A stretch of 39,868 nucleotides of DNA, from positions 1-39,868 of the forward strand of contig LVAK01000077.1 of assembly GCA_001604035.1 (NCBI GenBank), in the 5' to 3' direction. Of this stretch, positions 887 to 3,542 are shown piece after piece. The first letter of the stretch is position 1. Each line of letters begins with the position of its first letter. The stretch comes from Clostridiales bacterium Firm_05. GTDB lineage: Bacteria; Bacillota; Clostridia; Oscillospirales; Ruminococcaceae. The notes below the pieces were generated by a model that was given only the letters and a program-made list of their open reading frames with translations, searched no databases and was not told the origin of the DNA. The position numbers were made by a program, and so were the translations under genes.

Positions 887-1396
887 TTATATTGACTTTG
901 GGATCTTTTTTATCACGGCTTCATATATAACAACTGAACTTACAATACCCATAACGCCCTGCGCTACATTACCGACAATACCTAAAGCTGCTGTTGCGGC
1001 AGAGCCATAAAGCAATGCTTCAAATACAAAATATCCGGATATCATAACGATCTCAGCGGCGATGGCTCCGGATATTCTTCCGAGAAGACCATGTTTCTTG
1101 CCGGAAATGAACTTGAATACGCCATAAGATGCAACGGCCATACCGCTTTTGATTATAAGTGTTGCGGCTGCATATACAGCATATCCTGCGAAAAGATCAG
1201 CAAGTGCAGAGCCAATTCCGGATGCTGCAGCACCGTAGTACGGTCCGAGAACCCATGCTGAAACATTAACAAGACAGTCTCCGAGGTTTACATACCCCTT
1301 TGTTGGAGTAGGTATCCTTATCAGCATAGTTGCAACACAGGTTAGAGCTGCAAAAAGTGCTGAAAGAGTTACAAGTCTTATTTTTTTGCTGTTCAT
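887..1396 (-). CDS. ECF transporter S component (substrate unknown)
   Basis: Small multi-TM protein; KGYVNLGDCLVNVSAWVLGPYYGAAASGIGSALADLFAGY is typical of ECF S components. Confidence 0.75.
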   Translation of the reverse strand: MNSKKIRLVTLSALFAALTCVATMLIRIPTPTKGYVNLGDCLVNVSAWVLGPYYGAAASGIGSALADLFAGYAVYAAATLIIKSGMAVASYGVFKFISGKKHGLLGRISGAIAAEIVMISGYFVFEALLYGSAATAALGIVGNVAQGVMGIVSSVVIYEAVIKKIPKSI

Positions 1397-1424: not shown

Positions 1425-2708
1425 TTATTTTACTGCATCGAATCCCTTCTGAAGATCAGCAATGATGTCATCAATGTGCTCTGTTCCGATAGAAAGACGA
1501 ACAGTAGTAGGCTTGATGCCGGAAGCGAGGAGCTCTTCCTCACTTAACTGTGAATGGGTAGTTGACGCAGGATGTATAACAAGTGACTTTACATCAGCCA
1601 CGTTTGCAAGCAGTGAAAACAGTTCAAGGCTCTCCGTAAACTTCTTTGCAGTCTCGGCATCACCCTTGATATCAAATGTGAATATAGATGCTGCTCCATC
1701 TGGGAAGTATCTGTCATACAATTCTTTAGCTTTTCCTGTCTCCTGTGAAGGATGATTTACTCTTTCAACCTGAGGATGTGACTTAAGGAAATCTACGACC
1801 TTAAGTGCATTCTCAGTGTGTCTTTCGAGACGAAGAGAAAGTGTTTCAAGGCCCTGTAAGAGAAGGAAAGAGTTAAACGGAGATATAGCAGCACCCTGAT
1901 CTCTGAGGAGAGTTGTTCTTATCTTTAAAATGTATGCAAGATTGCCGCAGGCCTCAGTAAATATCACGCCGTGATATGACGGATTAGGCTTAGAAAGACC
2001 TGGGAACTTATCGTTCTGAGCCCAGTCAAACTTACCGGAATCTATGATAACACCGCCCATTACTGTACCATGTCCGCCGATGAACTTAGTTGCTGAGTGA
2101 ACAACTACATCAGCACCATGCTCGATAGGTCTGAGAAGATAAGGGGTAGCAAATGTGTTATCAACGATAAGCGGAATGCCATGCTTGTGTGCGATAGCAG
2201 ATATTGCTTCAATGTCTATCACGGATGAATTTGGATTACCAAGAGTTTCGGCATATAATGCCTTTGTATTTGGCTTTATAGCTTTCTCAAAGTTCTCCGG
2301 ATCACTTGGATCTACGAAAGTAGTTTCTATTCCCTGATCTTTAAGGGTATGTGAAAGAAGATTAAATGAACCACCGTAAAGATTGGTCGATGAAACGATG
2401 TGGTCGCCTGCAAGAGCTATATTCTGTATCGCATATGTTATTGCTGCTGAGCCTGAAGCAACAGCAAGTGCGCCTGCACCGCCTTCAAGCGCATTTATTC
2501 TTTCCTCAAAAACACTTGATGTAGGATTCATCAGCCTTGTATAGATATTGCCGGGAACTGTCAGTCCGAAACGGCCGGCAGCTGTTGCAGAATCCTTAAA
2601 CACGTAAGAAGTTGTAGCATAGATCGGTACAGCTCTTGAATCTGTGGCTGGATCCGGTGTTTCCTGACCTGCGTGTACCTGTAAAGTTTCAAATTTATAA
2701 TTGCTCAT
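1425..2708 (-). CDS. metY: O-acetylhomoserine aminocarboxypropyltransferase / O-acetylhomoserine sulfhydrylase (PLP-dependent Cys/Met family)
   Basis: METVHAGQ-like start ([10 protein letters not shown]), PLP lysine region [20 protein letters not shown], family length. Confidence 0.9.
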
Positions 2709-2765
2709 AATATCATACCTTTCATAATTGATTTGTTTTTTCTACCTTTCCTGTAGCTTGTATAT

Positions 2766-2794
2766 ACTATACCATACAATTCATACTATGTCAA
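2766..2794 (-). promoter_or_regulatory. Sigma-A-type promoter of metY
   Basis: On - strand TTGACA (2789-2794) - 17 bp - TATAGT (2766-2771). Confidence 0.75.
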
Positions 2795-2827
2795 TAGGTT
2801 TACAAATACATAATAATTATGAAAGGT

Positions 2828-2844
2828 TATAGATTGAATCTATA
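2828..2844. promoter_or_regulatory. MET-box-like 17-bp dyad upstream of metY promoter
   Basis: TATAGATT-G-AATCTATA, perfect 8-bp arms around one base; resembles the streptococcal MET-box TATAGTTTnAAACTATA (recalled from literature). Confidence 0.5.
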
Positions 2845-2866
2845 GCTGATATGATTCAATTCAACA

Positions 2867-2912: not shown

Positions 2913-3542
2913 TTATTTTGTGCCAAACATTCTGTCACCGGCATCACCGACACCGGGAACGATATATTTATCCTCGTTAAGACCTACATCAAGGGCACCG
3001 GTATATATTTCCACATCCGGATGAGCCTTCTGGATAGCAGATACACCCTCAGGTGAGCTGAGTATGCACATGAACTTTATGCTCTTTGCCCCTTTTTCCT
3101 TAAGGATATTTATAGCAGATACTGCTGAATTGCCTGTTGCAAGCATAGGATCAACTATTATAGCATCTCTTTCAGCTATATCTTCAGGAAGCTTTGAATA
3201 ATAATGTACAGATTCCTTTGTATCAGGATCACGGAAAAGACCGATATGACCGATCTTTGCGGCAGGAACAAGTTTTGTTACACCGTCTATCATACCAAGT
3301 CCGGCTCTGAGTATCGGAATGAACGCAAGCTTTCTGCCTGAGATTATCTTTGTTTTTGCTACAGCAAGAGGAGTCTCGATCTCGATCTGCTTAAGCGGAA
3401 GATCTCTTGTAGCTTCGTAGCATATAAACATAGCTACCTCAGATACAAGCTCTCTGAACTCCTTTGTACCTGTTGTTTTATCTCTGAGAAGAGATATCTT
3501 GTGCTGAACAAGCGGATGATCGATGATATGTAAATTTGACAT
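2913..3542 (-). CDS. upp: Uracil phosphoribosyltransferase
   Basis: [49 protein letters not shown]; classic UPRT. Confidence 0.96.

Follow-up and report, generated by a model that had tools for sequence, protein, structure and literature searches.

In streptococci, methionine genes are preceded by the MET-box, a 17-bp palindrome with the consensus TATAGTTTnAAACTATA (PMC2627894; PMC5359408), and mutation of its TATAG and CTATA arms, which stand seven bases apart, lowered expression in Streptococcus pneumoniae (PMC5359408). The window, by which we mean the whole stretch of 39,868 nucleotides of Clostridiales bacterium Firm_05 DNA analysed here, holds a palindrome of the same length and build upstream of metY. 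The host also has LysR proteins of the family to which the streptococcal regulator MtaR/MetR/CmhR belongs: a homologue from Streptococcus suis shares 47% identity with one of them (P0003) and 56% with another (C95). This S. suis protein may be MtaR/MetR itself, as its gene order (next to pyr genes) would suggest, but this serves as a lead only. The palindrome also resembles LysR sites more generally (those of CysB, proteobacterial MetR and CmbR) in its T-N11-A form some 65-80 bp before the start, in its weaker promoter-proximal half-sites and in what we infer here to be activation from one helical face. The site sequences of CysB, CmbR and proteobacterial MetR themselves differ from the TATAG-N7-CTATA motif.

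The features of the locus, with positions counted in the window, are as follows.

887..1396, - strand: gene for the S component of an ECF transporter (riboflavin-type Pfam family), 28 bp downstream of metY and possibly co-transcribed with it
1425..2708, - strand: metY, O-acetylhomoserine/O-acetylserine sulfhydrylase of 427 aa (TIGR01326 above cut-off), the gene under control
2741..2757, - strand: GCTACAGGAAAGGTAGA, a weaker copy (6/8) of the CCTA-N9-TAGG palindrome, next to the predicted start
2766..2771, - strand: -10 element TATAGT, with TG before it; predicted start near 2759
2782..2798, - strand: CCTATTGACATAGTATG, a 7/8 match to CCTA-N9-TAGG, over the -35, where a second regulator may bind
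2789..2794, - strand: -35 element TTGACA, 33 bp from the dyad
2800..2805, - strand: TTGTAA, exactly 22 bp from the dyad (from the sequence and the spacing table of related promoters)
2826..2846, - strand: extended 21-bp site GCTATAG-ATTCAAT-CTATAAC, 13 of 14 positions agreeing with the genus consensus GTTATAG-N7-CTATAAC
2828..2844, - strand: 17-bp dyad TATAGATT-C-AATCTATA, a putative LysR-type recognition site (TAG-N7-CTA, i.e. T-N11-A), from its sequence and its conservation before metY in the genus
2913..3542, - strand: upp, uracil phosphoribosyltransferase, the upstream neighbour, with no part in the control

At 2828-2844 the + strand reads TATAGATTGAATCTATA and the - strand TATAGATTCAATCTATA, so that the 17-bp dyad of the original prediction is indeed a perfect one (8+1+8). 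The promoter described with it, TTGACA-17-TATAGT with its -35 lying 33 bp from the dyad, was found at 2794-2766 on the - strand and agrees with the consensus at 11 of 12 positions. Taking the predicted start to be about 7 bp past the -10, near 2759, the dyad is centred at about -77, within the 75-80 bp upstream that had been expected. The MET-box consensus given with it, TATAGTTTnAAACTATA, is the published one (PMC2627894; PMC5359408), and the dyad departs from it, as claimed, by one symmetric change per arm. The outer TATAG and CTATA arms are seven bases apart in the window, and the site stands before methionine or cysteine genes in many genomes; the inner bases read ATTcAAT in the window rather than TTTnAAA and vary across 44 sites of the genus. 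Since the inner TTTnAAA is not conserved, we treat the site as a variant that resembles the MET-box and do not call it a MET-box. It differs from the MET-box also in that the genus consensus extends to GTTATAG/CTATAAC, and in its host clade, Ruminococcus and Lachnospiraceae.

Conservation was assessed in 100 genomes of the same genus, mostly draft assemblies and many of them metagenome-assembled, by scoring the 14 arm positions of GTTATAG-N7-CTATAAC in the 400 bp upstream of metY. The dyad proved to be conserved before metY in these related Ruminococcus genomes: in those positive for the LysR family, 42 of 57 metY genes were preceded by a site scoring at least 12/14 (perfect in 27), against 0.17% of shuffled metY upstreams, in which 13/14 never occurred. 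The other 15 metY upstreams were without the dyad, and two LysR-negative genomes, both incomplete, had it. Exact copies of GTTATAG-N7-CTATAAC numbered 62 in the 100 genomes, compared with 6 for a reversed-pattern control, and by hand count about 29 of the 62 lay within some 320 bp upstream of a metY match. A profile of 44 sites showed nearly invariant outer arms, GTTATAG and CTATAAC, around seven variable inner bases. The motif first proposed, TATAGWTTnAAWCTATA, of which the dyad is the only exact match in the window and the best in the 2.97-Mb draft host genome, therefore stands in its outer arms, whose conserved form is GTTATAG/CTATAAC, and falls in its inner bases. Upstream of metY, the host and its closest relative (metY 96% identical) both have upp, whereas others have different genes, which indicates that the dyad goes with metY and not with upp.

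A chance palindrome in AT-rich DNA would be the simplest account of the dyad, and the host genome has many one-mismatch forms of TTATAG-N7-CTATAA; a scan of that genome alone, allowing at most one mismatch, gave no excess over the reversed control (18 vs 29). The significance of the site thus comes from its position and its conservation. These two, together with its phasing to the promoter and the genes that it precedes, contradict a chance origin, which conservation had already refuted and which we regard as next to impossible. On the comparative evidence, the dyad is a genuine conserved site.

Across 44 metY promoters, the gap from dyad to -35 was 22 bp in 35, 33 bp in two (the window and genome G058 only) and 43-44 bp in seven, a class that includes the host's nearest relative; before a host cysK gene it was 53 bp. 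These gaps, returned by a promoter finder that worked from the promoter consensus alone, without phase, differ by approximately whole helical turns, which fits an activator sitting on one face of the DNA and not an RNA element. The T-N11-A dyad is in this respect phased with its promoter as LysR operators generally are. The combination of dyad, 22-bp gap and promoter had matches in 87 of the 100 genomes and a handful in the control, and occurred at 8 sites in the host. In the window, the TTGTAA found at the same 22 bp may be what is left of an earlier promoter in the usual metY arrangement. A second CTAT-like half-site lies 10 bp past the first in the 44 metY sites, with an invariant A at profile position +24, as would be expected of a promoter-proximal LysR contact. 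The whole-turn gaps constitute natural variants for probing the contact between a LysR activator and RNA polymerase.

The original prediction had recognized neither a SAM riboswitch nor a T-box upstream of metY. This was borne out by Rfam covariance models run on 2690-2930 at gathering and permissive thresholds, which returned neither of these nor any other relevant match. Both SAM-I riboswitches and T-boxes, which control met genes in Clostridia, are nevertheless present in the host genome: there are two SAM-I riboswitches, one of them before metK (contig C178, L349), and 11 T-box matches, of which 6 exceed the Rfam cut-off, but neither element precedes metY. The proposal that a LysR-type regulator replaces riboswitch control is therefore supported at metY, whereas methionine control in the host as a whole is not by LysR alone. 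The dyad might still act as an RNA hairpin, be it part of the upp end, a terminator or a riboswitch not yet charted, with metY controlled by read-through; it is situated between upp and metY on the same strand, and that strand has a predicted fold, with the dyad as a stem, far better than those of shuffles (z -5.8). Yet the dyad precedes the promoter of metY and is hence outside the metY transcript, has no T-run and no terminator call, shows no covariation in its inner pairs and is kept before metY also when a gene other than upp lies upstream; its exact phase to the promoter is a property of DNA, and the Rfam result adds to the case against a hairpin, which we consider highly improbable. An RNA explanation argued from the good fold was rejected, as the folded region includes DNA upstream of the promoter. 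We note separately that CCTTTCATAATT (2815-2826), just past the dyad, is complementary to AATTATGAAAGG (2718-2729), which lies at the ribosome-binding site of metY. In RNA reading through from upp, the two would pair and so hide that site; a shorter form occurs in the sister genome G024 (L017). Such a fold might keep metY untranslated off upp transcripts.

A LysR-type regulator encoded elsewhere in the genome had been suggested, and a search for a LysR-type gene with the same motif proposed as a check. The host has a LysR protein with HTH_1 and LysR_substrate domains and gave nine LysR_substrate matches, four of which, on contigs C243 (P0003), C199, C242 (P0002) and C95, belong to one family, and several do have the motif before them. 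Within the genus, the exact motif was present in 43 of 65 genomes with the LysR family and in 1 of 35 without a good match (p=1e-10; like the other statistics given here, uncorrected for ancestry). In the 70 genomes whose metY upstream was read, the P0003 class, counted so as to leave out a diverged class (D), was found in 39 of the 43 genomes that have the dyad and in 6 of the 27 that lack it, and the C95 class in 21 and 2 of them, respectively. Among 78 metY loci of other organisms, a gene of the P0003 family adjoins metY in four (Lacrimispora, Oribacterium, another Lachnospiraceae and another Ruminococcaceae), and the dyad is present in all four compared with 4 of the remaining 74 (p=5e-5). 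Homologues from Priestia, Selenomonas and Enterococcus (42-50% identical to P0003) adjoin metE with TATAG-N7-CTATA in between, the Priestia site being an exact streptococcal MET-box, so that the link between family and motif is old and common across Bacillota. C95, C199 and P0003 share 41-65% identity over their full length with the Enterococcus, Priestia, Selenomonas and Streptococcus homologues; they are thus of the same subfamily as the Bacilli homologues tied to metE or MET-box sites. NCBIfam and PDB searches placed P0003 and P0002 in no named LysR equivalog.

Of the four paralogues of this family that coexist in the host, the likeliest regulator appears to be P0003 or its close paralogue at C199, while the C95 orthologue beside metE may share the sites. 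It could instead be argued that this MetR orthologue, and not the P0003 class, is the cognate regulator at metY: the homologues from Streptococcus, Enterococcus, Priestia and Selenomonas find their best host match in C95 (49-65% identity), and CATAGCTTTTAGCTATG lies between its gene and metE (contig C95, L212, intergenic 1869-1971). However, 22 of the 43 metY-dyad genomes gave no match of its class, among them G024, the nearest relative, and many that are almost complete, whereas the P0003 class is present in the 39 noted above. We therefore find C95 a rather unlikely candidate, and P0003 or the C199 paralogue remains the likeliest.

A second palindrome, CCTAY-N7-RTAGG, overlaps the -35 of metY promoters, and in many cases there is another copy close to the start, at a distance of about 41 bp. 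It is perfect in 26% of these promoters (L019, L026, L031, L253, L043 and others) against 0.4% of shuffles, and is found also in genomes without the LysR family; in the host-genome scan, CCTAC-N7-GTAGG showed no excess over the reversed control, which is a composition-biased control. The palindrome, a candidate Rrf2/CymR-type box, suggests that an additional regulator acts at metY. If another regulator probably works on these promoters, the dyad too might be bound by a protein of a different class, for example Rrf2 or MarR, that shares the sulfur regulon. CCTAY-N7-RTAGG is nonetheless an element distinct from the dyad, and TATAG-N7-CTATA is found together with LysR genes in Ruminococcus, Lachnospiraceae, Priestia, Selenomonas and Enterococcus; both its T-N11-A form and its position are as expected for LysR proteins. 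Binding of the dyad by another class is thus very unlikely, and a LysR-type protein remains the candidate that we favour.

In most relatives a short leader open reading frame, LRS[IV][VI][RK]GTDRMCxxRC, follows the dyad and promoter (L278, L277, L282, L276, L293 and about 15 other metY upstreams), with a variant, SERMCR, in L020-L027. The same leader is found before LysR genes of the P0002 type (L135, L180-L190), where a hairpin and a T-run come next. The leader peptides matched no Pfam or NCBIfam family. Judged by its sequence, the leader looks like a cysteine attenuator; the metY of the window is without it. Host contig C156 (L003/L215, near 2754-2821) carries an orphan P0002 leader, complete with dyad, promoter and leader reading frame and with no LysR gene behind it, near rhodanese-like and ThiF-like genes.

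Genus-wide, sites of this kind precede cysK, ior/paaK next to a LysR gene, metB/lyase-like genes, malY, a gshF-like gene, ThiS/ThiF-like sulfur-carrier fusions and LysR genes, names that we assigned from the sequence except where we cite a family search. Sites in the host lie before an ssuA-like transporter operon, which is clustered with metB-like, cysK, LysR P0003, ior and paaK genes, and further ones mark a nitrogenase-like cluster that contains LysR P0002, a cysK gene and the gene for a Cys-rich lipoprotein. The best reading of these gene assignments is that the dyad belongs to a broad sulfur regulon. Unlike the streptococcal system, its targets would include cysK, ior/paaK, the nitrogenase-like cluster and LysR genes, and there are several paralogues per genome. 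On host contig C242 (L213), nifH-, nifB- and nifDK-like genes lie beside LysR P0002 with three dyad-promoters, and a similar metY-cysK-nif-LysR cluster is carried by a Treponema saccharophilum plasmid (L361); a sulfur-related role of the nif-like cluster, rather than nitrogen fixation, is possible. The lipoprotein gene, on host contig C53 (L006), has the dyad at the 22-bp gap and encodes a small protein rich in CC pairs (DCCKE repeats).

We think it very probable that the dyad is the upstream recognition site of an MtaR/MetR-family LysR activator that raises metY expression on shortage of sulfur amino acids. One dimer of a LysR tetramer would occupy GTTATAG-N7-CTATAAC, and the other would reach toward the -35 on the same helical face through the promoter-proximal half-sites. 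With low sulfur amino acids as the presumed trigger, the tetramer would then aid RNA polymerase at the TTGACA-17-TATAGT promoter, leading to more metY expression. We infer activation from the position of the site and from the S. pneumoniae relative.

A wider reading, for which we see about an even chance, is that Ruminococcus and neighbouring Clostridia have a multi-paralogue LysR sulfur regulon on GTTATAG-N7-CTATAAC with helically quantized gaps, and that in most species the transcripts of this regulon, one of them that of a LysR gene, also carry a previously undescribed Cys leader peptide, so that sulfur uptake and a nitrogenase-like enzyme would be controlled in two steps. In the open-access literature, to which our search was confined, we found no description of a Ruminococcus or clostridial MET-box regulon. 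Our results would extend control of the kind known from the streptococcal MET-box to Clostridia that are dominant in gut and rumen, and they name a likely regulator family and a testable list of sulfur genes in bacteria whose transcriptional control is almost unstudied.
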